From an uncultured Flavonifractor sp. (lineage in GTDB: Bacteria > Bacillota > Clostridia > Oscillospirales > Oscillospiraceae), in contig CANAAV010000016.1 of the NCBI GenBank assembly GCA_947346365.1, positions 1 through 60,766 of the forward strand: a DNA stretch of 60,766 nt, written 5' to 3'. Below are positions 21,241 through 57,979 of the stretch, piece after piece. The notes beneath the pieces were generated by a model that was not told where the DNA came from, did no database searches, and saw only the letters and a program-made list of their open reading frames with translations. How positions within the stretch are numbered: the first letter of the stretch is position 1; each line of letters starts with the position of its first letter. A program made the position numbers and the translations under genes.

Positions 21241-21287
21241 GCCTTTGGTGTTCTTTCCCCGCTGCCCAGAAAACATCGATTCCCTCA

Positions 21288-21449
21288 GGGCAGGTCTCCT
21301 GACTCACGCATCTCCCTTAGAACGCCTTCCCGTTTTCACAGTGGCTGTCTGTTCCTTGTCCGCGCTTACAGTAGTGGCTGCTGTGGAGGCTTTGCACCTC
21401 GCTTCCCTTTTACGACAACTGGGTTGTCGCCCTGAAAGTATTCAATTGT
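21288..21449 (-). ncRNA. Cobalamin (B12) riboswitch
   Basis: The minus strand shows the class hallmarks in order: TTGAATACTTTCAGG at the 5' side, GGGAAGCGAGGTGCAAAGCC, the B12-box core CAGCCACTGTGA, then GGGAAGGCG and the closing AGTCAGGAGACCTGCC. It lies between a perfect promoter and the terminator upstream of cbiQ. This fits repression of cobalt uptake when adenosylcobalamin is plentiful. Confidence 0.95.
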
Positions 21450-42718: not shown

Positions 42719-43447
42719 ATGCCTATAAAAGAAAATATTGCCGCAGTGCGCGCGCGTATAGACGCCGCGGCCCGCCGGGCCGGGCGAGAGCCGGCGGAGA
42801 TTACTTTGGTAGCCGCCACAAAGGTGCAGACCTCCCAGACAATCCGGCAGGCCATCGCCGCAGGAATTACCGTCTGCGGGGAAAACCGGGTCCAGGAGAT
42901 GTGCGCCCACCTGGAGGACAACGCCTATGCCGGGGCCAGCCTCCATTTCATCGGACACCTGCAAACCAACAAAGTCCGCCAGGTAGTGGGCCGGGTAGAC
43001 CTTTTGGAATCCGTGGGTTCCCTGAAGCTGCTGGAGGCCGTGGAGCGCCAGGCCGCCAAGCTGGAGCTGGTACAGGATCTGCTGCTGGAGGTAAACATCG
43101 GCGGCGAGCTGAGCAAAAGCGGCGTGTCTGCGCAGCAGCTGCCCGCCCTGGTGGAGCAGTGCATGAGGTTTGAGCATGTGCGTCTGCGCGGATTAATGGC
43201 AATTCCTCCCGTTTCTGCCACTCCCAGAGGAAATCGAGAATTTTTTGCGAAAATGTATCAGCTTTATGTTGACATAAGAACCGCTTTGGGCGATAATGGG
43301 AGAGGCGTAGACTGCCTTTCCATGGGCATGAGCGGTGATTTCGAGGATGCGATACAAGAGGGCGCTACCCTGGTACGGGTGGGCACCGCCCTGTTTGGTC
43401 CCCGTCCCCCGCTGCACACGGGCGGGACGGTTGATAAACACCAATAA
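42719..43447 (+). CDS. YggS/PLPBP pyridoxal-phosphate homeostasis protein
   Basis: 242 aa from ATG 42719 behind AAGGAGGG. An alanine-racemase-like barrel without the C-terminal domain: PLP lysine K35 in TLVAATKVQT, GENRVQEM, HFIGHLQTNKVRQVV, LLEVNIGGELSKSGV, GLMAIPPVSA, SMGMSGDFEDAIQEGATLVRVGTALFG. It buffers PLP and affects amino-acid pools; the gene is typically next to sepF, as here (29-base gap). Confidence 0.94.
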   Translation: MPIKENIAAVRARIDAAARRAGREPAEITLVAATKVQTSQTIRQAIAAGITVCGENRVQEMCAHLEDNAYAGASLHFIGHLQTNKVRQVVGRVDLLESVGSLKLLEAVERQAAKLELVQDLLLEVNIGGELSKSGVSAQQLPALVEQCMRFEHVRLRGLMAIPPVSATPRGNREFFAKMYQLYVDIRTALGDNGRGVDCLSMGMSGDFEDAIQEGATLVRVGTALFGPRPPLHTGGTVDKHQ

Positions 43448-43476: not shown

Positions 43477-43977
43477 ATGGGTTTGATGGATGAAATCCGG
43501 CGGCTGGCCCGCCCCTATGAGGACGAAGAAATGGAAGACGATATGGACGATTTTGAGCCTGTCTACCGCGACCGGGATCGGGACCGCCCGGAGCGGAGCG
43601 AGCGGCGCGGCAGTCGGCCGGTTTCCAGCAGCGACGCCGGCGGCCTTTTCCCCGTAGACAACGAGCGCCGGAGCAATAAAGTGGTCAATATTCACACCAC
43701 CACCCAGCTCCAGGTGGTGCTGGTAAAGCCCGACCGGTTTGAAAACGCCTCAGAGATTGCCGACCACCTGCGGGAAAAGCGTACGGTAGTGCTCAATCTG
43801 GAATCCACCAATAAAGACATCGCCCGCCGCCTGCTGGACTTTTTGTCCGGCGTGGCCTATGCCAACGAAGGCAAAATTAAAAAGGTCGCCATCTCCACTT
43901 ACATCATTACCCCTTACAACGTAGACATACTGGGCGATCTCATCGACGAGCTGGAGAACAACGGACTCTATCTCTAA
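43477..43977 (+). CDS. sepF: Cell-division protein SepF
   Basis: 166 aa. An amphipathic N-terminal membrane helix (MGLMDEIRRLA), an acidic/Arg-rich linker, and the SepF core (VVLVKPDRFENASEIADHLR, NLESTNKDIARRLLDFLSGVAY, IKKVAISTYIITPYNVD). It bundles FtsZ filaments and tethers them to the membrane. Followed by divIVA. Confidence 0.95.
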   Translation: MGLMDEIRRLARPYEDEEMEDDMDDFEPVYRDRDRDRPERSERRGSRPVSSSDAGGLFPVDNERRSNKVVNIHTTTQLQVVLVKPDRFENASEIADHLREKRTVVLNLESTNKDIARRLLDFLSGVAYANEGKIKKVAISTYIITPYNVDILGDLIDELENNGLYL

Positions 43978-44026
43978 GCGCTTTCCCGCCCGGCGGGACG
44001 AGACAAACAACAACGGGGTGATACCG

Positions 44027-44749
44027 ATGCTGACACCACAGGAGGTCTCCGAGCATGCTTTTGCCAAGGCGTCTTTCGGCGGCTATAACATGGGCATGGT
44101 GGATGAATTTCTGGACGTGCTGACGGCGGATTATACTGCCTTGTACAAGGAAAACACAACCCTGAAGGCAAAAATGAAGGTGCTGGTAGAGAAAGTGGAG
44201 GAATACCGCTCTACAGAGGACGCCATGCGCCGCGCTCTTTTGGCCGCGCAGAAAATGGCGGACGACATGGTAGCCGAGGCAGAAGCGAAAAAGGCCGCCC
44301 TGCTTAAGGACACCGAGAAGGCCGCGCGGGAGCGCATGGGCCAGCTACGCCAGGAAATTTCGAATGAAGAGTTGCGCCTGCGTTCGGCTCAGGAGGCGAC
44401 CGCCGGATATGTCGGCCAGGTGCGGGAGCTGTGCCGCCGGCAGATGGAGCATTTGAACAGCCTGCCCAGCGTTGTGGCTCCGCCGCCGGAGACAGACCCG
44501 GTAGCCGTCGCCGCCCAGGAGATTGAAGACTCGGTGGAAAAGCTGGTGCAGGACACGCCGGACGCCGTTGCCCAGGCGGACGAGCTCCCGGCTTCAGATG
44601 GCGAGGCCCCCGCTTCCGGAGGTGGGAGCCTTTATGCCGAACTTATGGAGCTCAACCTCTCCGGCCAGGAGGACGCCGTATCCGACGAGCCCACCCGGCG
44701 GATCGACTTTGACCACCTTCAGTTTGGCAAAGATTATGAGATCCGTTAA
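44027..44749 (+). CDS. divIVA: DivIVA-family cell-division / polarity protein
   Basis: 240 aa from ATG 44027; GTG 44018 is probably part of the ribosome-binding region. N-terminal lipid-binding domain (MLTPQEVSEHAFAKASFGGYNMGMVDEFLDVL), then a long coiled coil to about residue 145 and an acidic, Ala/Pro-rich tail ending FGKDYEIR. It recognises negative membrane curvature at septa and poles. Last gene of the division operon. Confidence 0.94.
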   Translation: MLTPQEVSEHAFAKASFGGYNMGMVDEFLDVLTADYTALYKENTTLKAKMKVLVEKVEEYRSTEDAMRRALLAAQKMADDMVAEAEAKKAALLKDTEKAARERMGQLRQEISNEELRLRSAQEATAGYVGQVRELCRRQMEHLNSLPSVVAPPPETDPVAVAAQEIEDSVEKLVQDTPDAVAQADELPASDGEAPASGGGSLYAELMELNLSGQEDAVSDEPTRRIDFDHLQFGKDYEIR

Positions 44750-44756
44750 AAAAGCC

Positions 44757-44785
44757 TTGACAGAATGGATTTTTCCCATTAAGAT
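44757..44785 (+). promoter_or_regulatory. Promoter of the ileS T-box transcript
   Basis: TTGACA (44757-44762), 17-base spacer, TAAGAT (44780-44785), only 7 bases after the divIVA stop. Confidence 0.75.
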
Positions 44786-44786
44786 A

Positions 44787-44816
44787 CTCGCAGGCGCATA
44801 GAGCTGCGCCTGCGAG
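44787..44816 (+). terminator. Hairpin at the start of the T-box transcript
   Basis: Stem CTCGCAGGCGCA / TGCGCCTGCGAG with a 6-nt loop and CGTTTTTG after it. It can terminate the divIVA operon, yet it overlaps the predicted ileS transcription start; a transcript beginning at about 44792 would carry only part of it. Confidence 0.7.
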
Positions 44817-44824
44817 CGTTTTTG

Positions 44825-45094
44825 CGGCGCAAGCCGCGCAGATATGACACATACGCTGGGATGAGGAGGAGTACCTTTCCTGAACTCCGCACAGAGAGCC
44901 GCCGTCTGGTGCAAGGCGGACGGAGCCGGAAGGGGAAAATCACCTCGGAGCGGCCCGCTGAACCCCTTTTAGGGCAGTAGGCGGGGACGGGCGGCGCCGT
45001 TATCCGCCAGTCGAGGGGCCGCGCTGGGTGCGGCAACGAGAGTGGTACCGCAGAGGATTTCGCGCCTTTGTCTCTCCGGAAGAGACAAAGGCGC
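44825..45094 (+). ncRNA. T-box leader of ileS
   Basis: Stem I contains a specifier ATC (44939-44941) in GAAAATCACC, an isoleucine codon. The T-box proper is AACGAGAGTGGTACCGC (about 45034-45051). The intrinsic terminator GCGCCTTTGTCTCT-CCGGA-AGAGACAAAGGCGC (45062-45094) is followed by TTCTCTATTT. Uncharged tRNA-Ile binding to specifier and T-box should favour the antiterminator and allow ileS expression. Confidence 0.93.
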
Positions 45095-45180: not shown

Positions 45181-47982
45181 ATGGATTACAACCAGACCGT
45201 CCATCTGCCCAAAACTGATTTTCCCATGCGGGCGGGCCTGCCCAAGCGGGAGCCGGAGATGCTCCAGGCCATGTATGACCAGGATCTCTACCACGCCATG
45301 ATCGCCCGCAACGAGGGCAAACCCCTGTTCATTCTCCACGACGGCCCCCCCTATGCCAACGGCAACATTCACATCGGCACGGCCCTGAACAAAATCCTCA
45401 AGGACATGATTGTCAAGCACCGGAATATGACCGGCTACTGCGCCCCCTATGTGCCCGGCTGGGACACCCACGGCCTGCCCATCGAAAGCGCCATTTTGAA
45501 AAACAAGAAAATCAAGCGGGATGAGCTGACCACCAGCGAATTCCGGGAGAAGTGCAAGGAGTACGCCCTGGATTTCGTGGACAAGCAACGGGAGGGCTTT
45601 AAGCGCCTGGGCGTGCTGGGCGAGTGGGACGATCCCTATCTGACCCTGAAGCCGGAATTTGAGGCCAAACAGATTGAGGTCTTTGGCAAAATGGCCCAGA
45701 GCGGCTTTATTTATAAGGGTATGAAGCCCGTCTACTGGTGTCCCCACGACCAGACCGCCTTGGCCGAGGCCGAGATCGAGTACCAGGACGATCCCTGCAC
45801 CACCATCTTCGTCAAGTTCCCCATCCGGGATGATAAGGGCAAGCTGACCCAGTATGCCGGTCTGGAGCATATTTTCTTTGTTATCTGGACCACCACCCCC
45901 TGGACTATCCCCGGCAACATGGCCATCTGTGTCAACGCCGGTCTGGACTATGTCCTGCTTCAGACCCCCAGCGGCGAGGTCTATATTCTGGCCCAGGCCC
46001 TGGCGGAGGGCGTCTGCAAGGCCGCGGGACTGGACTACGCCGCGTGCAGAACCCTGGCCGTCCTCAAGGGAGAAGAGCTGGAGCTTATGACCGCCAAGCA
46101 CCCTTTCTTCGACCGGGACTCCGTGGTGCTGTGCGGCGATCATGTCACTCTGGACGCGGGCACCGGCTGCGTCCACACCGCCCCCGGCTTCGGCGCGGAC
46201 GACTTCAACATCTGCAAGCAGTATGACGACGCCGGCCTGACCCACATCGGCACTCCTGTGCCCGTCAACGCCAAGGGCGTTATGACCGATGAGAAATATA
46301 ACGGCCGCTATTACGCCGAGGCCAACGAGGCCATTCCTGACGACCTGGCCGCGGCGGGGGCCCTGTTGGCCAGCGAGAAAATCACCCACTCCTATCCCCA
46401 CTGCTGGCGGTGCAAGCACCCCATCATCTACCGGGCCACCGAGCAGTGGTTCTGCTCGGTAGACCCCATCAAGGCCGCGGCCGTGAAGGCCTGCGACGGC
46501 ATTCAGTGGAAACCGGAGTGGGGCAAGGAGCGCATGACCGCCATGATCTCCGAGCGCAGCGACTGGTGCATTTCCCGCCAGCGGGTGTGGGGCGTGCCCA
46601 TTCCCATCTTCTACTGCGCCGAATGCGGCAAGGATATCGTCACCCCTGAGACCATCCAGCACGTAGCCGCCCTCTTCCGGGGGCACGGCTCCAACATCTG
46701 GTTTGACAAAACCGCCGACGAGCTCGCCCCGGAGGGCCTGTGCTGCCCCGTATGCGGCCACAGGCACTTCACCAAGGAAAACGACATCATGGATGTGTGG
46801 TTCGACTCCGGCTCCACCCACGCCGCGGTGTTGGATGGGCGGGATTACCTGCGCTTCCCGGCAGACGTATACCTGGAGGGCGGCGACCAGTACCGCGGCT
46901 GGTTCCAGTCCTCTATGCTCACCTCCATTACCGTTAAAGGCGCGGCCCCCTATAAGCAGATCATCACCCACGGCTGGACGGTAGACGGAGAGGGCAAGGC
47001 TATGCATAAGAGCCTGGGCAACGCCATCGGCCCTGAGGAGATCATCAAGGATTACGGCGCGGATCTGCTGCGGCTGTGGGTGGCCTCCGCCGATTACACC
47101 CAGGACATGCGCATTTCCGGGGAGATTATGAAGCAGCTCTCCCAGGCATATCTGAAAATCCGCAATACCGCCCGGTATATGCTGGGCAACCTGTACGATT
47201 TTGACCCGGACGCCGACATGGTCCCCGTGGAACGGCTCACGGAGCTGGACCGCTATGCCCTGCACCGCTTCAACGAGCTGGCCCGGGCCGCCCAGGCCGC
47301 ATATGAGCGCTATGAATTCCATGGGGTCTACCGGGCTGTGTACAATTTCTGCGTGGTGGATATGTCCAATTTCTATTTGGATATCATTAAAGACCGCCTC
47401 TACTGCGCCGAGCCCGCCGCCCGCCGCTGCGCTCAAACCGCCCTGTACCTGATTTTGGATGGCATGACCCGGCTCATCGCCCCCATTTTGGCCTTCACCA
47501 GCGACGAAATCTGGCACTCTATGCCCCATACCAAGGACGCCGACCCCCGGAGCGTCCTGCTCAATGACATGCCCTGCGGCGATCCCGCCCTGGAGCTTCC
47601 CAGCGAGCTCCAGCAGCGCTGGGAAAAGCTCGTCTCCCTGCGGGACGCGGTCAACAAAGCCCTGGAGAACGCCCGAAATGCAGGCGTATTCAAAAAGGCC
47701 CAGGATACCGAGGTGACCATTTCCGTCAAAGACCCGGCGGACGCCGCCCTGCTCTCCGGCGTGGATCTGGCCGCTTTGTGCATTGTGTCGGCAGTGCATG
47801 TTGTCTCCGAGGCGGTGGAGGGGGAAGAAAATCCCGACTGCCTGATTCCCTGCGCCATTGCGGTGGCCCTTTCCCAGGCGCCCAAGTGCGTCCGCTGCTG
47901 GAACCACGACGGCCGTGTGGGAGAGGATCACGACCACCCTGAGCTGTGTCCCCGCTGCGCTAAAGTGGTGCGGACGCTGTAA
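45181..47982 (+). CDS. ileS: Isoleucyl-tRNA synthetase
   Basis: 933 aa from ATG 45181 behind AGGAGG. Class I synthetase: HIGH motif in PYANGNIHIGTALNK, editing domain, WDTHGLPIE, and the KMSKS-equivalent GEGKAMHKSLGN, in which the second and third positions read AMH. Cys pairs CAEC and CPVC, and a C-terminal zinc finger CVRCW...CPRC. It charges tRNA-Ile. Expression is controlled by the T-box upstream. Confidence 0.96.
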   Translation: MDYNQTVHLPKTDFPMRAGLPKREPEMLQAMYDQDLYHAMIARNEGKPLFILHDGPPYANGNIHIGTALNKILKDMIVKHRNMTGYCAPYVPGWDTHGLPIESAILKNKKIKRDELTTSEFREKCKEYALDFVDKQREGFKRLGVLGEWDDPYLTLKPEFEAKQIEVFGKMAQSGFIYKGMKPVYWCPHDQTALAEAEIEYQDDPCTTIFVKFPIRDDKGKLTQYAGLEHIFFVIWTTTPWTIPGNMAICVNAGLDYVLLQTPSGEVYILAQALAEGVCKAAGLDYAACRTLAVLKGEELELMTAKHPFFDRDSVVLCGDHVTLDAGTGCVHTAPGFGADDFNICKQYDDAGLTHIGTPVPVNAKGVMTDEKYNGRYYAEANEAIPDDLAAAGALLASEKITHSYPHCWRCKHPIIYRATEQWFCSVDPIKAAAVKACDGIQWKPEWGKERMTAMISERSDWCISRQRVWGVPIPIFYCAECGKDIVTPETIQHVAALFRGHGSNIWFDKTADELAPEGLCCPVCGHRHFTKENDIMDVWFDSGSTHAAVLDGRDYLRFPADVYLEGGDQYRGWFQSSMLTSITVKGAAPYKQIITHGWTVDGEGKAMHKSLGNAIGPEEIIKDYGADLLRLWVASADYTQDMRISGEIMKQLSQAYLKIRNTARYMLGNLYDFDPDADMVPVERLTELDRYALHRFNELARAAQAAYERYEFHGVYRAVYNFCVVDMSNFYLDIIKDRLYCAEPAARRCAQTALYLILDGMTRLIAPILAFTSDEIWHSMPHTKDADPRSVLLNDMPCGDPALELPSELQQRWEKLVSLRDAVNKALENARNAGVFKKAQDTEVTISVKDPADAALLSGVDLAALCIVSAVHVVSEAVEGEENPDCLIPCAIAVALSQAPKCVRCWNHDGRVGEDHDHPELCPRCAKVVRTL

Positions 47983-48475: not shown

Positions 48476-50347
48476 TTAACTGCGTCCAAAGCGCTGCTCC
48501 AGCTGGGCCCTGGTGAGCTCAATGGCCACCGGTCTGCCGTGGGGGCAGTATTTCACCTGCCCGTCCATAACCGCCCGGGCCACCTTCAAAAGCTCCTCCC
48601 GGCTGTTTTTCTGCCCGCCCTTGATGGCCGCCTTGCACGCTATTGTGTGCATCAGAACGTCTCTGGCGCTTTCCGGGTCCGCCCGGCCGGTAGACAGCAG
48701 CTCTTCCCCAAGGGCGGTGAGGATGCCTTCGATCTCCCCGGCGTCCACCTCCGAAGGGGCGCTGCGAACAATTACCGCGCCGCCCCCAAAGTCCTCCACC
48801 TCAAATCCAAAGCGGCTGAGCAGGGGAAGGTGGGCCAGCAGCGCGGCCCCCTCCTCCATGGGCGGGGTGAACACCAGCGGAGAGAGCAGGGCCTGGACCA
48901 TAATCTGGCGCCCCTCCGCCTTCAGGCGGTCAAACTGCAGCCGCTCGTGGGCGGCGTGCTTGTCGATAAAGAGGACTTTGTCCCCCTGCTCCACGATGAT
49001 GTAAGTGTCCAGCACCTCCCCCGCCATACGCCAGGACTGCGCCGGAGGCATCTGCGGAATCTCCTGGGCGTCCTCTTCCCGCCGGACGGCGGGCGTTTCC
49101 TCTTTTTCCCCCGCCGGGGCGGGGACGCAGGGCCGCTGCTGTTCCGCCGCAGGAGCGGGGCGGAACGCCGGTTCCGCCGGAATAGGGGCTTTGGGGGCGG
49201 TGACGTCGTGAAGGGGAAGGGCGGGGGCGCTCCAGTCTGCTTTCTGGCGCAGCTCCTGGACGGTCATGGAGTGAAAGCCGCCCCTCTGTTCGGCGGGCTT
49301 GGGCGGAACCGGCGGTATGCTGCGCCGGGGCGCGGCCACGGCGGACGGGCGGGCACAGTCGTTGTCCAGCGCCGCCCGGACCGCATAGTACACCGCGTCA
49401 AACACCCGCCGGTCCGAGCCGAATTTCACCTCTTGCTTCGTCGGGTGGACGTTTACATCCACCGTGCTGAGCCTACAGGTCAGGTAAAGCACGCAGCCGG
49501 GAAATTTCCCTACCATTTTTTGATTGGCGTAGGCCTCCTCCAGCGCCGCCATCATGGTACGGCTTTTTACATAGCGTCCGTTTACAAAAAAGAACTGATG
49601 CCCCCGCGTCCCCCGGCAGCAGGCGGGCCGTGTGGCAAAGCCGCTGACGCACATGTCCTCTCCGGCGCCCTGTACCGGGAGAAAGCCCAGCGCCAAATCC
49701 CGGCCCAGCACGGCGTACAGCGCGCTCTGCGGCCTGGCGTCGCCGGGCGTGAGCAGTTCCTGCCTGCCGTCCCGAAGAAATTTAATTCCGATCTCCGGAT
49801 GGGACAGGGCCAGGCGCTGTACCACGGCGAAGCAGGCCGCGCCTTCGGCGGCGTCCTTTTTTATAAATTTCAGCCGGGCGGGGGTATTATAAAACAGGTC
49901 CCGCACCACGATGGTGGTCCCCTGGGGACAGCCGGCCTCCTCCTGGGCAATTACCACGCCCCCCTCCAGGGTGAGAGAGGTCCCCAACTCCGTACCCCTG
50001 GCACGGGTAAGCAGTTCAATGCGGGAGACGGCGGAAATCGCCGCCAGGGCTTCCCCCCGAAAGCCCAGGGTGCCGATGGCCTCTAAATCCCGCTCTGCAC
50101 GCAGCTTGCTGGTGGCGTGGCGGAGGAACGCGGTGGGCGCCTCCGCCGCGGCGATGCCGCAGCCGTCGTCGGTAACCCGGATCAGCGTCATGCCCCCGTG
50201 CTGAATCTCCACCGTAATGCTCCCCGCCCCGGCGTCTACGGCATTCTCCATCAGCTCCTTTACCACGCTGGCAGGGCGCTCAACCACCTCGCCGGCGGCA
50301 ATCAGGTCGGCCACATGGGGATCTAAGCGTTGAATATGCGCTGTCAT
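48476..50347 (-). CDS. mutL: DNA mismatch repair protein MutL
   Basis: 623 aa from ATG 50347 behind AAAGGAG. The GHKL ATPase part has LIAAGEVVERPASVVKELMENAVDAG, DDGCGI and GFRGEALAAISAVS. A Pro/Ala-rich linker (about 330-430) leads to the C-terminal endonuclease/dimerisation domain with DKHAAHERLQFDRL (metal-binding DKHAAHERxxYE-type motif) and ACKAAIKGG, CPHGRP. It lies 25 bases after mutS. Confidence 0.96.
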   Translation of the reverse strand: MTAHIQRLDPHVADLIAAGEVVERPASVVKELMENAVDAGAGSITVEIQHGGMTLIRVTDDGCGIAAAEAPTAFLRHATSKLRAERDLEAIGTLGFRGEALAAISAVSRIELLTRARGTELGTSLTLEGGVVIAQEEAGCPQGTTIVVRDLFYNTPARLKFIKKDAAEGAACFAVVQRLALSHPEIGIKFLRDGRQELLTPGDARPQSALYAVLGRDLALGFLPVQGAGEDMCVSGFATRPACCRGTRGHQFFFVNGRYVKSRTMMAALEEAYANQKMVGKFPGCVLYLTCRLSTVDVNVHPTKQEVKFGSDRRVFDAVYYAVRAALDNDCARPSAVAAPRRSIPPVPPKPAEQRGGFHSMTVQELRQKADWSAPALPLHDVTAPKAPIPAEPAFRPAPAAEQQRPCVPAPAGEKEETPAVRREEDAQEIPQMPPAQSWRMAGEVLDTYIIVEQGDKVLFIDKHAAHERLQFDRLKAEGRQIMVQALLSPLVFTPPMEEGAALLAHLPLLSRFGFEVEDFGGGAVIVRSAPSEVDAGEIEGILTALGEELLSTGRADPESARDVLMHTIACKAAIKGGQKNSREELLKVARAVMDGQVKYCPHGRPVAIELTRAQLEQRFGRS

Positions 50348-50372: not shown

Positions 50373-52979
50373 TCAGGACAAAAGCTGCTTGAGCTCGTAG
50401 AGCAAATTCATGGCCTCGATGGGCGTAAGGGTGTTTACATCTGTCCGGCGCAGGCGCTCTGCCGCCTGCGCGCTGCCCATGTCCAGCAGCGACACCTGGC
50501 CGGCCGGAGCAGCCGAAGGGGCACACGGGGCAGGCGGAGGAGCGGCCGCGCCCTCCAGCTCCTCCAGAATCTCCCGTGAGCGCTGAATCACCCGCTCCGG
50601 AACTCCCGCCAGCTTGGCCACTTCTACTCCATAGCTCTGATCCGCGCCGCCCCGGACAATTTTACGCAGAAAAACCACGTCCTCCTTGCGCTTTTTCGCG
50701 GCGATGCTGTAATTTTTCACCCCCGGCAGCTGGCCCTCCAGGCAGGTGAGCTCGTGATAATGGGTGGCAAAGAGCGTCTTGGCCCCCAGGCATTTTTTAT
50801 CCGTACAGTACTCCAGCACCGCCCGGGCGATGGACATGCCGTCATAGGTAGAGGTGCCGCGTCCAATCTCATCTAAAATCAGCAGACTTTGGGGTGTGGC
50901 GTTTTTCAGCAGCTCCGCCACCTCGCTCATTTCCACCATAAAAGTGGACTGTCCGGCAGAGAGGTCGTCGCTGGCCCCGATGCGGGTAAATACCCGATCC
51001 ACCACCCCGATACGCGCCGCTCTGGCGGGAACAAAGCAGCCCATCTGGGCCATAAGCACAATCAGCGCCACCTGGCGCATATAGGTGGACTTGCCCGCCA
51101 TATTGGGTCCGGTAATGATGGCCGCTATATTCTCTCCTGCATCCATGCGGGTGTCGTTGGGCACAAACAGGCTGTTTTTCAGCCGCCGCTCCACCACCGG
51201 ATGCCGGCCCTCAGCAATTTCCAATACGCCAGACAAATCCACCTCCGGCCGGCAGTAGCCGTATTCCGCCGCCGCAGCAGCAAAGGATGAGAGCACATCC
51301 AGCTGTCCCACCGCCGCCGCGGAGCGCTGCACACGGCTCACCTGGGCGGCGGCGCGCGCGCGCACCTGGCAGAACAGCTCATACTCCAGGGCGTCGATCC
51401 GGTCCTTGGCGGACAGGATGGCGTGCTCCATGTCTTTGAGCTCCTGGGTGATATAGCGTTCGCAGTTGGCCAGGGTCTGCTTGCGCACGTAGCCCTCAGG
51501 GACCTGGCTGTAATAAGATTTGGACACCTCAATGTAATAGCCGAATACCTTGTTGAAGCCCACCTTCAGGCTTTTAATTCCGGTGCGCTCCTTCTCCCGC
51601 GCCTCTACGGCGGCTACCATCCCTTTGCCATTGGTAATGATCTCCCGCAGGCGGTCGGCCTCTTTGTCAAAGCCCGGGCGGATTACGCCTCCCTCCCGAA
51701 CAGAGAACGGGGGATCGTCGATAATGGCCCGGTCGATCAGCCCGCGCAGCTCCTCCAGATCGTCCAGCTCCTCCCGCAGGCGGGACAGCAAAGCGCAGGT
51801 ACGGCCGGCCAGCAGCTCCCGCACAGCGGGCAGGCGGCCCAGCCCCTTGGACAGCGCCGTCAGATCCCGCCCGCCCGCGCTGCCGTAGACAATGCGCCCG
51901 ATCAGGCGCTCCAGGTCGCCCACCTCCCGCAGCGCAAGGCGCAGCTCCTCCCTGCCGATCGAGTCTCCCGCCAGCTCCTCCACGGCGGACAGGCGGCGGC
52001 TTATGGCGGCGGGAGAGAGCAGCGGACGCTCAATCCAGGCACGGATGAGCCGCCGGCCCATGGGCGTGCGGGTCGTATCCAGCACCCCCAGCAGGCTCCC
52101 CCGCTTCTCTCCGCCCCGCATGGTCTCGGTCAGCTCCAGTGTCCGCCGGGCGGTCAGATCCAGCTCCATAAACTGCCCCTGCGACAGGCAGCGCAGCGCG
52201 GAGATGTGGGACAGATCGGTTTTTTGGGTCTCGTAGAGATAGCTCAGCAGTCCTCCCGCCGCCTGGAGCGCCCGCTCGCTTCCCTCCGGCAGAGCGTCCA
52301 GCCCCTCCCGGAACTGCCGCCGCGCCAGCGCGAGAGCGGTATCGGGGTAAAAGCGCTCTTCCCCGCCGTTTTCGCACCGGCAGGCGAGCTTTTGCGTGAG
52401 AAAGCGCAAAAGCGGCCCGTCAGACCAGGCTCCCCCGCTGAGCAGCGCCTCCCTGGGGGAGAAGCGGCCCAGCTCGTTATAAAGCCGCTCCTCCTCCGCC
52501 TCCCCGGTCTCAAAGGCGCTGACGGCACATTCGCCGGTGGAGATGTCGCAAAAGCACACCCCAGAGCCCTGGCTGTCCCGGTAGATGGCGCAGATATAGT
52601 TGTTGCGCCCCTCCTCCAGCATTGAAGCGTCGATCACCGTGCCGGGGGTAATGATGCGGATTACCTCCCGCTCCACCAGGCCCTTGGCTTGGGCGGGGTC
52701 CTCCATCTGCTCACAGATGGCTACCTTATATCCCCGGCTGATGAGGCGGGCAATGTACGCGTCGGCAGAGTGGTACGGCACCCCGCACATAGGGGTGCGC
52801 TCCTCCTCCGGCTTGCCCCTGTCCCGGCTGGTCAGGGTAAGCTCCAGCTCCCTGGACGCAACCCGTGCGTCCTCGTCGAACATCTCGTAAAAATCTCCCA
52901 GCCGGAAAAAGAGAATGCAGTCGGGGTGCTGCTCCTTCATCTCCTGGTATTGCCTGCGCATGGGGGTCAATTCAGCCAT
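50373..52979 (-). CDS. mutS: DNA mismatch repair protein MutS
   Basis: 868 aa from ATG 52979 behind AAGGAG; upstream in-frame ATG 53009 is less well placed. Mismatch-reading N-terminus (MRRQYQEMKEQHPDCILFFRLGDFYEMF with the Phe-x-Glu motif), clamp and core domains, and the ATPase with Walker A GPNMAGKST, LILDEIGRGTSTYDG and FATHYHEL. It recognises mispaired bases and recruits MutL. Confidence 0.97.
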   Translation of the reverse strand: MAELTPMRRQYQEMKEQHPDCILFFRLGDFYEMFDEDARVASRELELTLTSRDRGKPEEERTPMCGVPYHSADAYIARLISRGYKVAICEQMEDPAQAKGLVEREVIRIITPGTVIDASMLEEGRNNYICAIYRDSQGSGVCFCDISTGECAVSAFETGEAEEERLYNELGRFSPREALLSGGAWSDGPLLRFLTQKLACRCENGGEERFYPDTALALARRQFREGLDALPEGSERALQAAGGLLSYLYETQKTDLSHISALRCLSQGQFMELDLTARRTLELTETMRGGEKRGSLLGVLDTTRTPMGRRLIRAWIERPLLSPAAISRRLSAVEELAGDSIGREELRLALREVGDLERLIGRIVYGSAGGRDLTALSKGLGRLPAVRELLAGRTCALLSRLREELDDLEELRGLIDRAIIDDPPFSVREGGVIRPGFDKEADRLREIITNGKGMVAAVEAREKERTGIKSLKVGFNKVFGYYIEVSKSYYSQVPEGYVRKQTLANCERYITQELKDMEHAILSAKDRIDALEYELFCQVRARAAAQVSRVQRSAAAVGQLDVLSSFAAAAAEYGYCRPEVDLSGVLEIAEGRHPVVERRLKNSLFVPNDTRMDAGENIAAIITGPNMAGKSTYMRQVALIVLMAQMGCFVPARAARIGVVDRVFTRIGASDDLSAGQSTFMVEMSEVAELLKNATPQSLLILDEIGRGTSTYDGMSIARAVLEYCTDKKCLGAKTLFATHYHELTCLEGQLPGVKNYSIAAKKRKEDVVFLRKIVRGGADQSYGVEVAKLAGVPERVIQRSREILEELEGAAAPPPAPCAPSAAPAGQVSLLDMGSAQAAERLRRTDVNTLTPIEAMNLLYELKQLLS

Positions 52980-53013
52980 ATGCTCCCGCTCCTTCTCCAT
53001 ATGCGGCAAGACG

Positions 53014-53081: not shown

Positions 53082-53906
53082 TCAGTCTTCCGCCAGCTGC
53101 CGGGCCACGTCCGCCAAATAGTTGGGGGCAAACCCCTCAATTCTGCCCTGATCGCACGCGGCCGCCACCGCCGGATCAATGGGCAGCCGGGCCAGAACCT
53201 TCAGTCCCAGCTCCTGGGCCACCTGCTCCAAATGGCTCTGGCCAAAAACGGCGTGCTCCCCGCCGCACTCCGGGCACTTAAAGTAGCTGTAGTTCTCCAC
53301 CAGTCCCAGCACGGGAATGTGCATCAGCTGCGCCATCTTCACCGCCTTGGTCACAATCATGCGCACCAGGTCCTGGGGGGAAGTAACCACCACAATGCCG
53401 TCCACCGGCAGGGACTGAAAGACCGTCAGGGGCACATCTCCCGTGCCGGGAGGCATATCCACAAACAGGTAATCCAGATCTCCCCAAACAACATCGGTCC
53501 AGAACTGCTTCACCGCCCCGGCAATGACGGGCCCCCGCCAGATCACCGGGTCCGTCTCCTGCTCCATGAGCAGATTCAGGCTCATAATCTGGATGCCGCC
53601 GGCGCTGGGAACCGGGTAGATGCCCAGCTCATTGCCCTCCGCCTTGGTGTGGACGCCAAAAGCCGTGGGAATCGAGGGGCCGGTAATATCGGCGTCCAGA
53701 ATCCCCACCCGCTTGCCCCGCTCCGCCATGGCGCAGGCCAGGGCGCAGGCCACCGTGCTTTTGCCCACGCCGCCTTTGCCGCTGACCACGGCGATGACCT
53801 TCCCGATGTGGGACAGGGGGTTGGCGGGAGCGCGCAGGTCCTGGGGAGCGGTGCGCTCCCCGCAGCTCTCCCCGCAAGAGGAACACTCGTGCGTGCAATC
53901 GGACAT
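53082..53906 (-). CDS. Mrp/NBP35-type Fe-S carrier ATPase
   Basis: 274 aa from ATG 53906. The Cys-rich N-terminus (CTHECSSCGESC) could hold a cluster. The deviant Walker A GKGGVGKST (about 43-51), ILDADITGPSIP, FVDMPPGTGD and the conserved FKCPECGGEH Cys pair identify an Mrp family scaffold that transfers [4Fe-4S] clusters to apoproteins. Confidence 0.93.
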   Translation of the reverse strand: MSDCTHECSSCGESCGERTAPQDLRAPANPLSHIGKVIAVVSGKGGVGKSTVACALACAMAERGKRVGILDADITGPSIPTAFGVHTKAEGNELGIYPVPSAGGIQIMSLNLLMEQETDPVIWRGPVIAGAVKQFWTDVVWGDLDYLFVDMPPGTGDVPLTVFQSLPVDGIVVVTSPQDLVRMIVTKAVKMAQLMHIPVLGLVENYSYFKCPECGGEHAVFGQSHLEQVAQELGLKVLARLPIDPAVAAACDQGRIEGFAPNYLADVARQLAED

Positions 53907-53988: not shown

Positions 53989-55485
53989 CTAACCGGCCTG
54001 AACGGCGTGGAATTCCACCAGCCGCCCCTTTTCCGCCAGCGTTTTTTCCAAATCCCGCAGGTATTCCTGGGGATATTTCGCGTTGCTCAGGCGTACAATC
54101 CGCCCGCTCCTGGCGTCCACCAGCTTGGTTACGCCCCCGCCGCCCAGGGAAACTACGGTGTGCAGCTCCTCCATCATACAGATGTTGTACAGGCTCTCAA
54201 ATCCCGGCCGGGTCCAGCCTACGTTTTCAAAGGAGCCGGACATATATTTCTGCCGGTAGAGGTAGTAGGGTCCATATCCCGCCTCCCGCAGCGCCTTCCA
54301 GGCGTAATCCAGCATGGCGGACACCTGCGCCCCCTCTGGGAGGAGGGTCTCCCCCTCTCCCCACTGGGCCATGAGCCGGGAACCTTTTTTCAGGGCCAGC
54401 GTGTGCACGGTAATATTTTCTGGCCCCAGCGCCAGTACCTGATCCAATGTGGAGCGAAAGCCCTGCGCGCTGTCGGCGGGCAGGCCGGCGATCAGGTCCA
54501 TGTTGACGCAGGGAATCCCGCTCTCTCGGACCAGGGCGTAGGCCCGCAGGACATCCTCCGCCCGGTGCGCCCGTCCCATGGCGGCCAAAACCCTGTCGTC
54601 CATGGATTGGGGGTTGACCGACACCCGGCCCGCTCCCCTGCGGTGGAGCACCTCCAGCTTTGGGGCCGTAATGGTGTCCGGCCGGCCGGCCTCCACCGTG
54701 TACTCGGTGCAGGCGGACAGGTCAATATGCTCCGCCACAGCCCCCATCAGCCGGTCCAGCTGGGGCGCCGAGAGGGTGGTCGGGGTGCCGCCGCCCATGT
54801 ACACGCTGCGCACCCGCAGCCCCGCCTGCTCCAGCGCCCGGCCCGCGGCGGCGGCCTCCCGCACCAATGCGTCCAAAAAGGGCTCCACCAGCTTGAGCGT
54901 CCGGCCCACATCGGCGGAGACAAAGGAGCAGTACGCGCAGCGGGTGGGGCAGAAGGGAATACCGATATACAAGGACGCCTGGTCCGGGAACAGCGCGGCC
55001 CGGGCCGCCAGACTGGCGCCGGCGCAGTCCATGGCCAGCCGCCGCCGGGGCGGCGAGACCCGGTAGGTATCCCGCAAAACAGCCTCCGCCTGGGCGGGCG
55101 ACGCCCCGCCCAGCATAGCCTTGACGGGGATTTTCACCGGGCGCACCCCGGTCATGGCCCCCCAGGGGGGCTCCCGGCCCAGGGCCCGGACGCCCGCGTC
55201 ATAAAACGCCAGCTTCAGAATCCGCTGGAGCGCCCGGTCCGCATCCCGCCCTCCGGCCAGCTCCGCCTCCCGGCAGCGGCGCACCCCGGAAAAGCGCTTT
55301 CCCCGCCAGCTGAGCCGGGCCGAAGCCGTACACCACACCGCCCCGTGGGAGAGGCTCAGCCGCAGCGCGTCCTCCCCCGCTTCCGGCGCAGCCGCCGGAT
55401 ACTCCGGCCGCTGGTCCGGGAACAGCGTCAGCAGCATCTGCTCGACGGCGTATTTATACTCGTGTCCCTCGAAATAGAGCTTCAT
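53989..55485 (-). CDS. hemZ: HemZ-type coproporphyrinogen III oxidase (radical SAM)
   Basis: 498 aa. N-terminal ~150 residues specific to HemZ, then a radical SAM barrel with YIGIPFCPTRCAYCSFVSAD (three Cys for the [4Fe-4S] cluster) and VRSVYMGGGTPTTLSAPQLD. The C-terminal HemW/HemN-like part follows. Family members are annotated as oxygen-independent coproporphyrinogen dehydrogenases, but true activity versus a HemW-like haem-carrier role is uncertain. It starts 1 base after the MBL gene stop. Confidence 0.9.
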   Translation of the reverse strand: MKLYFEGHEYKYAVEQMLLTLFPDQRPEYPAAAPEAGEDALRLSLSHGAVWCTASARLSWRGKRFSGVRRCREAELAGGRDADRALQRILKLAFYDAGVRALGREPPWGAMTGVRPVKIPVKAMLGGASPAQAEAVLRDTYRVSPPRRRLAMDCAGASLAARAALFPDQASLYIGIPFCPTRCAYCSFVSADVGRTLKLVEPFLDALVREAAAAGRALEQAGLRVRSVYMGGGTPTTLSAPQLDRLMGAVAEHIDLSACTEYTVEAGRPDTITAPKLEVLHRRGAGRVSVNPQSMDDRVLAAMGRAHRAEDVLRAYALVRESGIPCVNMDLIAGLPADSAQGFRSTLDQVLALGPENITVHTLALKKGSRLMAQWGEGETLLPEGAQVSAMLDYAWKALREAGYGPYYLYRQKYMSGSFENVGWTRPGFESLYNICMMEELHTVVSLGGGGVTKLVDARSGRIVRLSNAKYPQEYLRDLEKTLAEKGRLVEFHAVQAG

Positions 55486-55486
55486 C

Positions 55487-56092
55487 TCAGCGCCCCATGG
55501 CCTCTTGCATATAATAGTTGCCCTTGCGCTCCTGCTCCAGGGTGGACAGTCCCATGTGGCCGGGAAGCACCTGGAAATCTCCCTCCAGCCCGCCCAGCTG
55601 CCTTAAAGAGGCCATAATCTGCTCATAGGAGCCGCCGCCCAGGTCGGTGCGGCCCATAGAGCCCTGAAACAGGGTGTCTCCGGTGAAGAGCACATCCCCT
55701 ACCCGCAGGGTCACCCCGCCGGGAGTGTGGCCGGGAGTATGCATCACATGGACGGCGAGAGGCCCCACCGCCACCGTATCCCCATCTCCATAGGGGACGG
55801 TCTCTCCAATGGGCGGCATTACGGCGGTCCCCAGCAGGGCGGCGTCGGCGGGATGAAGGTAGACCGGCACGCCGGGCAGCGCCTGCCGCAGCTCCCGCAC
55901 CGCCCCGGTGTGGTCATAGTGCCCGTGGGTCAGCAGGATGGCGCACACCTGCGCCCCCGTCTCCCGAATCTGCTCCAAAATGCCCTGGGCCTCCCCGCCG
56001 GGGTCCACAATGGCGGCGCAACGGGTGGTTTCGTCCTCCAAAAGGTAGCAGTTGGTGCCGATCTGGCCCACCTGCATCAGTTTAATCTTCAT
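55487..56092 (-). CDS. Metallo-beta-lactamase-fold hydrolase (glyoxalase II-like)
   Basis: 201 aa from the third of three ATGs (56092), which gives the best spacing to AAAGGGG. Zinc-binding motif LLTHGHYDHTGA, later HTPGHTPGG and FTGDTLFQGSMGRTDL, and the final PGHMGLST. This matches the small MBL-fold enzymes (YcbL/glyoxalase II-like) that hydrolyse thioesters; the substrate is unknown. Co-transcribed with dtd and hemZ. Confidence 0.9.
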   Translation of the reverse strand: MKIKLMQVGQIGTNCYLLEDETTRCAAIVDPGGEAQGILEQIRETGAQVCAILLTHGHYDHTGAVRELRQALPGVPVYLHPADAALLGTAVMPPIGETVPYGDGDTVAVGPLAVHVMHTPGHTPGGVTLRVGDVLFTGDTLFQGSMGRTDLGGGSYEQIMASLRQLGGLEGDFQVLPGHMGLSTLEQERKGNYYMQEAMGR

Positions 56093-56105
56093 CATCATAC
56101 CCCTT

Positions 56106-56549
56106 TTACATGGTATCGGTGTCCAGCCAAATGGTCACGGGGCCGTCGTTCTGGGAATAGACCTGCATGTCCGCGCCAAACTGCCCGTGTTCCACCGTGA
56201 ACCCCCGCCGGCGGCACTGGTCCATAAACCGCTCGTACAGGGGAACGGCCGTATCCGGCTTAGCCGCCCCGGTGAAGCCCGGGCGGCGGGATTTCGTGTC
56301 GGCATAAAGGGTGAACTGGCTGACCACCAGCAGGCTGCCCCCCACCGCCTCCAGACTCAGATTCATCTTCTCGTTTTCGTCCTCAAAAATACGCAGGCCG
56401 CAGATTTTATCCGCCATCTTATCCGCCTGCGCCTCGGTGTCCTGGCTCCCTACCCCCAGCAGCACCAGGAAGCCCTGCGCAATCTGCCCGTTCACCGCCC
56501 CGTCAATGGTGACGCTGGCGCTTTTTACCCGTGTAACAACTGCTCGCAT
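56106..56549 (-). CDS. dtd: D-aminoacyl-tRNA deacylase
   Basis: 147 aa from ATG 56549. Family signatures: MRAVVTRVKSASVTIDG at the start, VSQFTLYADTKSRRPGF (the SQFT motif with catalytic Thr) and the NDGPVTIWLD ending (Gly-cisPro equivalent). It removes D-amino acids, and glycine mischarged on tRNA-Ala, from tRNA. It is located between an alanine-racemase homologue and the MBL gene. Confidence 0.95.
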   Translation of the reverse strand: MRAVVTRVKSASVTIDGAVNGQIAQGFLVLLGVGSQDTEAQADKMADKICGLRIFEDENEKMNLSLEAVGGSLLVVSQFTLYADTKSRRPGFTGAAKPDTAVPLYERFMDQCRRRGFTVEHGQFGADMQVYSQNDGPVTIWLDTDTM

Positions 56550-56575: not shown

Positions 56576-57643
56576 TCAACGGTATTCCCGGACAAAGCCC
56601 TTGGCATACACCGGGTCGATATCAAAGACGGCGACGTCCCCCGCCGCGCATTTCAAATCGGTCACGTCCACAATGGTCTCGATGGCGCCCACCCGGCCGA
56701 TGACACGGGCGCGCTGCCCATTGATACGCACGCAGACGCGCTTTGCGCCCCACCAGCGGCGCAGAGCGGCCCATAGGCCGGCATCCCGGCTGCGCCCCAC
56801 GGTGAAGCCGTTCTGATAGCCCACCGGAAGCACCGCCACCCGCGTGGGCTTTTTCAGGGTGACGAGCGCCTCGTTGCCTACGGTATGGCCCTTGGGCAGC
56901 CAGCGGGTTTCCTCAATCTCCACCTCTCCATGGCCTACCCGGAGCAGGCCGTCCCCCCGCACGCGGCGGCACCGGCCCAGCAGGGCGGAACCCACCCGCA
57001 CCCCGTCCAGCACAGCCTGCTCCCAGTGCATCAGGGCAAAGGACCCGGCGGCGTGGACCGTGCCCGTTTCAAATCCGGCGGCATGGATGGCCTGCACCAC
57101 CTGCCGGAATTCCTCCAGCTGGCCCTGGGCGTCCCCTCCGCCGGGCTTCGCGGCGTGCAACTGGGTATACACGCCGGACAGGGCCACGTTGGGCAGGCTG
57201 CGGTAGGCGCTTAGAATCCGCTCCGGCTCGCTGGACAAAAAGCCGCCGAAGCCCATGCCGGTGTCGATCTGAATATGGGCCTCGGCTATGGTGGAGCGGG
57301 CCTCCGCCACGGCGTTGAGGGCCATGCCCGTATCGGCGGAGCCCACGGTACACACTACGTTCAGGTCCAGCAGCTCCTCCAGCTCCTCCCGATTGGTGGT
57401 GCAGCGGAGCATCAAGATCTCCTCCTCCACCAATCCGGCCTTGCGCAAGATCTTGGCCTCGCCGGGTTCGGACACCGCAAAGCGCCCAACCCCCTCCTGC
57501 CGCAGAAGCTGGGCCAGCTCCACAATGCCCGCGCCGAAGCCGTCTCCGGTGAGCAGGGCGTAAATGCACGCGCTCCCCGCCCGCTCCTTGACGGCGGCGA
57601 TATTGCTTTTCAAGGCCTCTTGCTCGATAACCAGCCGTTTCAT
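56576..57643 (-). CDS. Alanine-racemase homologue lacking the PLP lysine
   Basis: 355 aa from ATG 57643; the frame is open upstream but crosses the promoter. Barrel domain and C-terminal domain are both recognisable (VVCTVGSADTGMALNAVAEA, AHIQIDTGMGFGGFL, VLPVGYQNG, GRVGAIETIVDVTDL). At the PLP-binding motif, normally K-A/G-N-x-Y-G-x-G, it reads YALLTGDGFGAG: Thr32 stands where the Schiff-base lysine belongs and Tyr is Phe. At the C-terminal site the usual C-M-D reads G-A-I (319-321), while the Tyr of GYxxG (Y276) is kept. A normal racemase mechanism looks impossible; a regulator, a binding protein or another reaction is likely. First gene of the dtd operon, with a consensus-like promoter. 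Confidence 0.85.
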   Translation of the reverse strand: MKRLVIEQEALKSNIAAVKERAGSACIYALLTGDGFGAGIVELAQLLRQEGVGRFAVSEPGEAKILRKAGLVEEEILMLRCTTNREELEELLDLNVVCTVGSADTGMALNAVAEARSTIAEAHIQIDTGMGFGGFLSSEPERILSAYRSLPNVALSGVYTQLHAAKPGGGDAQGQLEEFRQVVQAIHAAGFETGTVHAAGSFALMHWEQAVLDGVRVGSALLGRCRRVRGDGLLRVGHGEVEIEETRWLPKGHTVGNEALVTLKKPTRVAVLPVGYQNGFTVGRSRDAGLWAALRRWWGAKRVCVRINGQRARVIGRVGAIETIVDVTDLKCAAGDVAVFDIDPVYAKGFVREYR

Positions 57644-57680: not shown

Positions 57681-57709
57681 ATTATATACGGTTGGAAAGT
57701 TCTAGTCAA
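57681..57709 (-). promoter_or_regulatory. Promoter of the alr-homologue/dtd operon
   Basis: Minus strand TTGACT (57709-57704), 17-base spacer, TATAAT (57686-57681), about 38 bases before the start codon. Confidence 0.8.
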
Positions 57710-57719
57710 TGAAAAGGAC

Positions 57720-57979
57720 GGGGGAACGCGGAATCTCCGCGCTCCCCCGAGACTGTCGAAAAAGCGGCTTTGCCGCTTTTTCGAGCCAATTGCGGCCTGT
57801 GGCGCGCACGGATTGTCCACTTACAGTGGACAATCCGTGCACTGACAGACCGAGAAGTGTTTTCTCCGACGCACATGTCGCCGGAGAAAACGAACCTTTA
57901 CTTGATTCGCGCCCAGCGGCGCGAACTCTGCGAGAATTTTTTGACAACCTGGGGGAACGCGAAATCTCCGCGCTCCCCC
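57720..57979. repeat. Hairpin-dense tract with 29-bp direct repeats
   Basis: Two 29-bp copies (57720-57748 and 57951-57979; 28 of 29 identical; GGGGGAACGCG...CGCGCTCCCCC, each nearly self-complementary) bracket four more stems. They are TCGAAAAAGCGGC/GCCGCTTTTTCGA (57756-57784, repeat R3 copy b), a perfect 16-bp stem GCACGGATTGTCCACT with a 3-nt loop (57806-57840), GTTTTCTCCG/CGGAGAAAAC (57859-57891) and TTCGCGCC-CAGC-GGCGCGAA (57906-57925). No coding gene. It could hold the terminator of the M56 gene, a small mobile element or a structured RNA. Confidence 0.8.

Follow-up and report, generated by a model that had tools for sequence, protein, structure and literature searches.

Introduction

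When a protein of the alanine racemase family has lost the lysine on which the family's chemistry depends, can it still be a racemase and, if not, what is it kept for? This question is raised by a gene on a contig of 60,766 nucleotides from an uncultured Flavonifractor sp. (CANAAV010000016.1, assembly GCA_947346365.1), the whole of which is called here the window. The established mechanism of alanine racemase is PLP-dependent and uses two bases. In Bacillus numbering, which we follow for all pocket residues, the PLP and active-site set is made up of Lys39, Tyr265 (from the other subunit), Arg136, Arg219, Tyr43, Ser204, Gly221, Ile222 and Tyr354, with Arg136 contacting O3 of PLP, and mutants of the matching Arg173 of lysine racemase were inactive (PMC3485190, in excerpt). 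The roles of Lys39 and Tyr265 in the chemistry have also been described, together with that of His166 in tuning Tyr265 (PMC6411801, in excerpt). A reading of the window made from the sequence alone had offered three options for the gene: a sensor of D-Ala or L-Ala, a pseudo-enzyme, or a new activity linked to D-amino-acid control. The analysis presented here makes it probable that its product is a pseudoenzyme, freed from a pathway of FemAB-type peptidoglycan-bridge transferases and retained for binding or regulation without catalysis.

The gene and its surroundings

The gene encodes a protein that we call AlrL, which lies on the minus strand with the following features around it:

57719..57749, minus strand, terminator-like hairpin ahead of the promoter-like site
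57681..57709, minus strand, sigma-70-type promoter-like site, TTGACT-17-TATAAT, 11/12 matches
56576..57643, minus strand, lysine-less alanine-racemase-like protein (AlrL), 355 aa
56628..56647, minus strand, terminator-like site within the end of the AlrL gene, which may be due to chance
56106..56549, minus strand, dtd, D-aminoacyl-tRNA deacylase (PF02580), first gene after AlrL
55487..56098, minus strand, metallo-beta-lactamase-fold (MBL) hydrolase (PF00753)
53989..55485, minus strand, radical SAM protein (PF04055), which we take to be HemZ-like
53082..53906, minus strand, Mrp/NUBPL-type P-loop NTPase (PF10609)
50373..53009, minus strand, presumably mutS, by a tblastn match to the MutS reference of a relative
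48476..50347, minus strand, presumably mutL, by a tblastn match and named in the same way

The AlrL frame runs from an ATG at 57643 to a stop at 56576 without internal stops, and the gene is thus intact, as previously claimed. Both domains of the family are matched in Pfam (Ala_racemase_N at 6e-40, Ala_racemase_C at 4e-12), and the scores against the NCBIfam models of alanine racemase (TIGR00492, 132.4 bits) and of the VanT serine racemase (NF033131, 136.5 bits) stay under the cut-offs of 168 and 460 bits, respectively. The good promoter described in the sequence-only reading was recovered as the 11/12 match listed above, ending 37 bases ahead of the ATG. From AlrL on, dtd and the genes for the MBL-fold hydrolase, the radical SAM protein, the Mrp-type ATPase, MutS and MutL follow in this order on one strand. 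The proposed operon with dtd stands only in part: dtd starts 26 bp after the AlrL stop and no terminator-like site was seen in this gap, but two overlapping ones (56647-56628) fall in the final 72 bases of the AlrL gene, even if shuffled sequences give such sites often (3 in the region versus 2.1, sd 1.6, in shuffles).

An active site without its bases

The positions of AlrL that matter for catalysis and PLP binding are these:

57548..57550, minus strand, Thr32 codon (ACC), position of the Schiff-base Lys39
57248..57250, minus strand, Phe132, position of Arg136 (PLP O3 contact)
57161..57163, minus strand, Gln161, position of His166
56996..56998, minus strand, Arg216, equivalent of Arg219 (PLP N1 contact), kept in 54/54 rows of the window's group
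56873..56875, minus strand, Asn257, position of the second catalytic base Tyr265
56681..56686, minus strand, Ala320-Ile321, position of the Met-Asp pair

Alignment with solved racemases confirmed the earlier assignment, made by eye, of the Schiff-base lysine to Thr32 and of the C-terminal Met-Asp pair to Ala-Ile. Compared with a bona fide alanine racemase (TIGR00492; PF01168 plus PF00842; EC 5.1.1.1), the losses go beyond those then listed, and comprise Tyr265, His166, Arg136, Tyr43 (Phe36 in AlrL) and the long tail. Equivalents of Ser204 (Ser201), Gly221 (Gly218) and Arg219 remain, Ile222 is replaced by Ser219, and the GYxxG tyrosine is retained as Tyr276, which, along with the two Pfam domains, agrees with the claim that the fold motifs and this tyrosine were kept.

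A takeover of the role of Lys39 by another lysine of the chain, the finding that had been named as fatal to the idea, was considered and rejected. AlrL holds 12 lysines, among which only Lys331 is retained in more than 90% of the window's group (51/54 rows), and this residue of the C-terminal domain is judged from its place in the sequence to lie outside the pocket; no conserved lysine stands in a plausible place and none clearly fills in. As the two-base mechanism needs both residues, a protein with neither the lysine nor Tyr265 cannot run the known racemisation, and the earlier statement that the normal PLP mechanism is unusable can be upheld. To judge from its residues, AlrL would not be expected to catalyse racemisation through the established mechanism, with no internal aldimine to form and neither base at hand.

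Fold, insert and tail

Structure prediction, one of the checks originally proposed, gave a confident alanine-racemase fold. The AlphaFold2 model, built with 69 family sequences, has a pLDDT of 93.6 and a pTM of 0.88, with the lowest values at about residues 281-300, and its best matches among solved structures are amino-acid racemases, so that both Pfam and the predicted structure assign AlrL the two-domain fold. By sequence as well as by Foldseek, the closest structure is that of a VanT serine racemase (4ecl); unlike VanT, AlrL lacks the catalytic residues and has no residues left for a membrane domain.

Two regions set the protein apart from canonical racemases, the first of which is the following:

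56732..56806, minus strand, family-specific Arg/Trp-rich insert, residues 280-304

Across positions 279-304, AlrL has 26 residues versus a median of 11 in 8 canonical rows, and the model shows a helix at 290-300 with a pLDDT of about 72. An amphipathic membrane helix was considered for this insert and discarded, the hydrophobic moment being no higher than in shuffles (778/2000 as high for the window protein). The second region is the tail, of 31 aa, for which 8 canonical relatives have a median of 57. Given this short tail and a model in which no helix beyond position 300 reaches four residues, the helix that carries Tyr354 is probably missing from AlrL.

Distribution and loss of the lysine

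A first scan of named genomes yielded 39 loci, 28 of them close relatives and 11 distant racemases; the close relatives came mostly from Flavonifractor and other Oscillospiraceae, and the lysine was absent in 28/28. Further rows were added as 29 loci (L047-L075), then 60 more, and then 20 from outside the window's taxonomic family, the rows standing for fetched loci with weaker or unlisted matches left out. The alignment has 153 rows, and 127 were counted after removal of 15 canonical or distant ones, 7 fragments or same-genome copies and 4 identical ones. At E <=1e-30, a relative is carried by 149 of 300 genomes of the window's taxonomic family, 83 of 197 of the order and 25 of 196 of the class, where lysine status was read for the fetched loci only.

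Among the 127 rows of the protein family, the lysine is kept in 43 and lost in 84 (Thr 46, Ser 35, Ala 2, Asn 1). All 84 lysine-less rows are single open frames, 83 of 350-365 aa and one (L091) of 437 aa, while two further rows end at contig edges. Outside the window's taxonomic family, the lysine occurs in all 20 rows of the first fetch and in five of six from a later one, L172 being the exception. As for the question of whether the threonine is conserved, the window's own group of 54 rows lacks the lysine throughout, but Thr itself is not fixed (Thr 43, Ser 9, Ala 2).

In a tree of 116 rows, the 84 lysine-less rows all fall in one clade of 85, the remaining member of which, L084, has the lysine. 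A tree of 94 hand-picked rows gave a clade of 49 lysine-less rows plus L084, with a support of 99/95, and placed L172 as a separate loss of the lysine, with three changes overall. With canonical racemases as the root, the lysine-bearing forms take the basal position and absence of the lysine is the derived state. L084 has the lysine without Tyr265 and His166, though it sits within the lysine-less clade, and a regain or a repeated loss must be assumed, which counts against the main reading. Also to be set against it are nine lysine-less rows that retain Tyr265: over the 127 rows, both residues are present in 40, Lys only in 3, Tyr only in 9 and neither in 75. In the rows added after these counts, L163, L164, L166 and L173 keep both residues, L165, L167 and L172 are without the lysine, and L168-L171 have the lysine without Tyr265.

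The 355 positions were scanned for residues shared by 90% or more of the lysine-bearing rows but by no more than 15% of the rows in either lysine-less group; only 32, 161 and 257 came through, the equivalents of Lys39, His166 and Tyr265. The scan was done with 40 lysine-bearing rows (L084, L151 and L152 out), and the use of all 43 gave the same three positions. At least five genomes (G013, G063, G075, G198 and G204) contain both a lysine-less and a lysine-bearing copy.

A second lineage, from another family (L151, L152 and L168-L172), has lost Tyr265 in 6/6 lysine-bearing rows and, in L172, the lysine too, with no FemAB in the flanks searched; it is a parallel decay.

The link with FemAB

Neighbouring genes were identified by tblastn with 13 reference proteins, gene calling by longest frame or by base-composition asymmetry having been discarded for its frequent antisense frames in GC-rich DNA. 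As flank lengths differ (about 0.2 to 5 kb), the counts of neighbours that follow are lower bounds, and absences are no proof. Directly upstream of 32 of the 43 lysine-bearing rows there is a gene for a FemAB protein (PF02388; FemX-like at 160 bits, below the model cut-off of 500). Within the window's taxonomic family, FemAB lies upstream of 18 of 23 lysine-bearing rows (17 directly, L095 at 2.7 kb) and, outside it, directly upstream of 15 of 20, while it is absent from the flanks, of the lengths given, of all 84 lysine-less rows.

The surroundings of the lysine-less genes are of two main kinds. In a sister group, mutL follows in 30/30 rows; in the window's group, the next gene is dtd in 40/54, an ATP-grasp-like gene in 8 and none of the 13 references in 6. 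A divergent miaB is found upstream in 21/30 rows of the mutL group and in 31/54 of the window's group. As to the idea of a link with D-amino acids, dtd follows in most of the window's own group but mutL throughout the sister group; the link with dtd is suggestive at most and local to one branch, and both the role of AlrL and any tie to dtd or D-amino acids are putative.

At the level of whole genomes, the analysis covered 58 hand-picked ones, of which 16 are lysine-bearing and 41 lysine-less; G037, a mixed case, was kept out of the FemAB count. FemAB was found in 15/16 of the lysine-bearing and 3/41 of the lysine-less genomes (strong in G020, weak, at 32-38 bits, in G175 and G071), with a Fisher p of 6e-10 that ignores kinship and reflects few independent events. 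It was not found in the window's own genome, of 86% completeness. The tie between lysine and FemAB is not strict, given that G013, G063 and G075, scored as lysine-less in this comparison, carry a lysine-bearing copy without FemAB.

The FemAB-linked lysine-bearing relatives resemble AlrL in length, insert site and short tail, at 30-48% identity. Unlike AlrL, the lysine-bearing relatives keep Lys39 (43/43), Tyr265 (40/43), His166 (40/43) and Arg136 (41/43), and have a longer insert. Loci such as L105 and L139, together with other FemAB-linked ones across the order, have the lysine, an Arg-rich insert of greater length and a short tail, and these genes may code for a racemase of bridge synthesis in peptidoglycan that is as yet uncharacterised.

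A different arrangement occurs at L084, L023, L078 and L091, where the racemase-like gene is followed by genes for an ATP-grasp-like protein, an Asp/Glu-family racemase (in L023, above the cut-off for the cysteate racemase CuyB) and a fused Mur ligase-amino acid kinase. These loci are an unfamiliar D-amino-acid or wall-peptide cluster. Their ATP-grasp-like protein has no Pfam match and no credible counterpart of solved structure, and the matches that it has in NCBIfam, carbamoyl-phosphate-synthase-like, are all weak.

Selection and the fate of the pocket

Substitution rates were obtained with a simple counting method, codon bias uncorrected. For 14 rows (91 pairs), the median dN/dS of AlrL is 0.37, and the medians of its neighbours are 0.40 (hemZ-like), 0.51 (MBL), 0.41 (miaB) and 0.16 (dtd). 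AlrL is therefore under purifying selection, with a constraint similar to that of three of the four neighbouring genes and weaker than that of dtd. By groups, the medians are 0.41 for 776 pairs of the window's group (highest 0.74), 0.18 for 60 pairs of the mutL group and 0.23 for 4 pairs of lysine-bearing rows. The higher value in the window's group, where constraint may be somewhat relaxed, speaks against the main reading.

The pocket itself was followed through the entropy of its barrel residues relative to the barrel mean. In lysine-bearing rows, the values are 0.45 versus 1.92 (0/5000 random sets as low), in the window's group 0.63 versus 1.05 (176/5000) and in the mutL group 1.14 versus 1.25 (1659/5000), where the old pocket is conserved no more than the rest of the barrel.

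A probable pseudoenzyme and its alternatives

Pseudoenzymes are a known kind of protein, and AlrL has several of their traits: it is an enzyme homologue with the predicted fold, it has lost the catalytic residues in a conserved clade, and it is under purifying selection. Of the three options originally offered, the pseudo-enzyme fits best, because both bases and the histidine were lost together and the pocket of the mutL group has no extra conservation. A well-predicted fold under purifying selection would most likely be kept for a non-catalytic role, and a constraint on the whole protein that fades in the pocket favours surfaces over the pocket, pointing to a binding or regulatory subunit. 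The history could have started with a two-domain protein of the PLP-enzyme type bearing the Lys, Tyr and His, with a short C-terminus, encoded directly downstream of a FemAB-type transferase; this ancestor is suggested by the commonest lysine-bearing state and by the tree with canonical racemases at its root. A copy came to adjoin miaB/mutS or mutL in the window's taxonomic family, where most such genomes have no FemAB and the equivalents of Lys39, His166 and Tyr265 are gone. The protein could thereafter have acted on a partner through its dimer and insert surfaces, in the manner of an antizyme inhibitor, with the canonical Alr, a VanT-like racemase or products of the operon such as Dtd as candidate partners.

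The antizyme inhibitor is a pseudoenzyme of PLP fold III. This homologue of ornithine decarboxylase is a case of an enzyme copy that acts through protein binding (PMC10762828, in excerpt), and is compared here only for the way it works, being eukaryotic and of a different subfamily from AlrL. A bolder version of the same history, in which an undescribed FemAB-partnered interpeptide-bridge racemase was freed at the loss of FemAB, dropped exactly the Lys-His-Tyr set, and had its surface recruited for regulation, as a subunit that serves wall synthesis or the quality control of D-amino acids and, in the window's branch, is encoded next to dtd, is put forward as a tentative possibility.

The alternative that survives best is a ligand sensor, in which the old pocket would bind PLP, an amino acid or an adduct of the two, no Schiff base being formed, and its bound state would signal to a partner or control wall or D-amino-acid metabolism. 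In its favour, the pocket of the window's branch, with the low entropy mentioned above, keeps a new conserved set: Gln125 in 49/54 rows, Gln161 in 50/54, Gly200 in 51/54, Ser201 in 53/54 and Gly218 in 53/54, besides the invariant Arg216. His197 is strongly kept too, and this residual conservation, which could mean ligand binding, weighs against a purely surface-based role. The frequent dtd downstream and the Asp/Glu-family racemase of several ATP-grasp-type loci would also suit a sensor. However, the phosphate-binding Tyr43 position is variable in the window's group (Gly 21, Gln 14, Tyr 8, His 4, Arg 3 of 54), where Arg136 has also gone and the tail is reduced, and in the mutL group the Arg219 equivalent is Cys in 10/30 rows and the pocket has no more conservation than the barrel; altogether, we regard a sensor as unlikely, if worth keeping in view.

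A new catalysis, with PLP held non-covalently or PLP-independent through the Thr/Ser32-Gly-Asp motif and the kept His197, seems to us quite improbable. The strong retention of His197, Ser201 and Arg216 in the window's group would be in its favour, and a canonical racemase with Tyr265 changed to Ala is reported to gain aldolase activity (PMC6411801, in excerpt). Nevertheless, position 32 may hold Thr, Ser, Ala or Asn and position 257 has hardly any restriction, unlike a new catalytic pair, and the mutL group shows no pocket constraint. Even less credible, and very improbable in our view, is a functionless remnant of a duplicated racemase on its way to decay: the lost catalytic residues, the lost pocket constraint of the mutL group and the higher dN/dS of the window's group than of the few lysine-bearing pairs would agree with it, but the 84 lysine-less rows are all single open frames, the dN/dS is close to the values of three of the four neighbours, and half of the genomes surveyed in the taxonomic family (149/300, lysine status read for part of them) carry a relative. 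Finally, the idea of a normal racemase masked by an error of sequencing or alignment, for which no evidence was found, is refuted for practical purposes, since the lysine is absent from 28/28 close relatives in other assemblies and its loss follows the tree.

A pseudoenzyme of this kind has consequences for annotation, as the Pfam matches make one expect the label of racemase, which in the lysine-less clade would overstate the number of D-alanine-making genes in gut bacteria. Moreover, the 43 lysine-bearing and 84 lysine-less rows offer a dense before-and-after series for the passage from a PLP enzyme to a pseudoenzyme, with the loss of the FemAB partner as the candidate trigger of release, and draw attention to a racemase-like family with FemAB linkage that spans the order. 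In the open-licence literature, as far as titles and the starts of abstracts go, neither an alanine racemase devoid of the lysine nor a pairing of FemAB with a racemase was found described.

Other racemases and further elements

The second, canonical alr that the sequence-only reading had suggested looking for does exist in the window's genome (TIGR00492 at 338 bits, cut-off 168), accompanied by a VanT-like racemase. A canonical alr above the cut-off is present in 57/58 genomes, the exception being G053, a lysine-bearing one, and AlrL does not seem to be needed for the supply of D-alanine. The VanT-like racemase (L002, G000:C4, about 43911-45014) scores above the VanT-G cut-off, and its neighbours, as named by eye, are a serine acetyltransferase, a D,D-carboxypeptidase and the end of a D-Ala-D-X ligase, in a VanG-like arrangement.

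Three more elements were noted in the window itself:

42719-43447, plus strand, PLP-binding barrel protein of 242 aa, presumably YggS-type
44849-45072, plus strand, T-box leader, preceding an isoleucyl-tRNA synthetase-like gene at 45181-47982 (named by eye)
21272-21449, minus strand, cobalamin riboswitch

The pyridoxal-phosphate homeostasis proteins YggS/PLPBP, which are not racemases, share the PF01168 barrel with AlrL; the presumed YggS-type protein of the window is a single barrel and, unlike AlrL, has no C-terminal domain.
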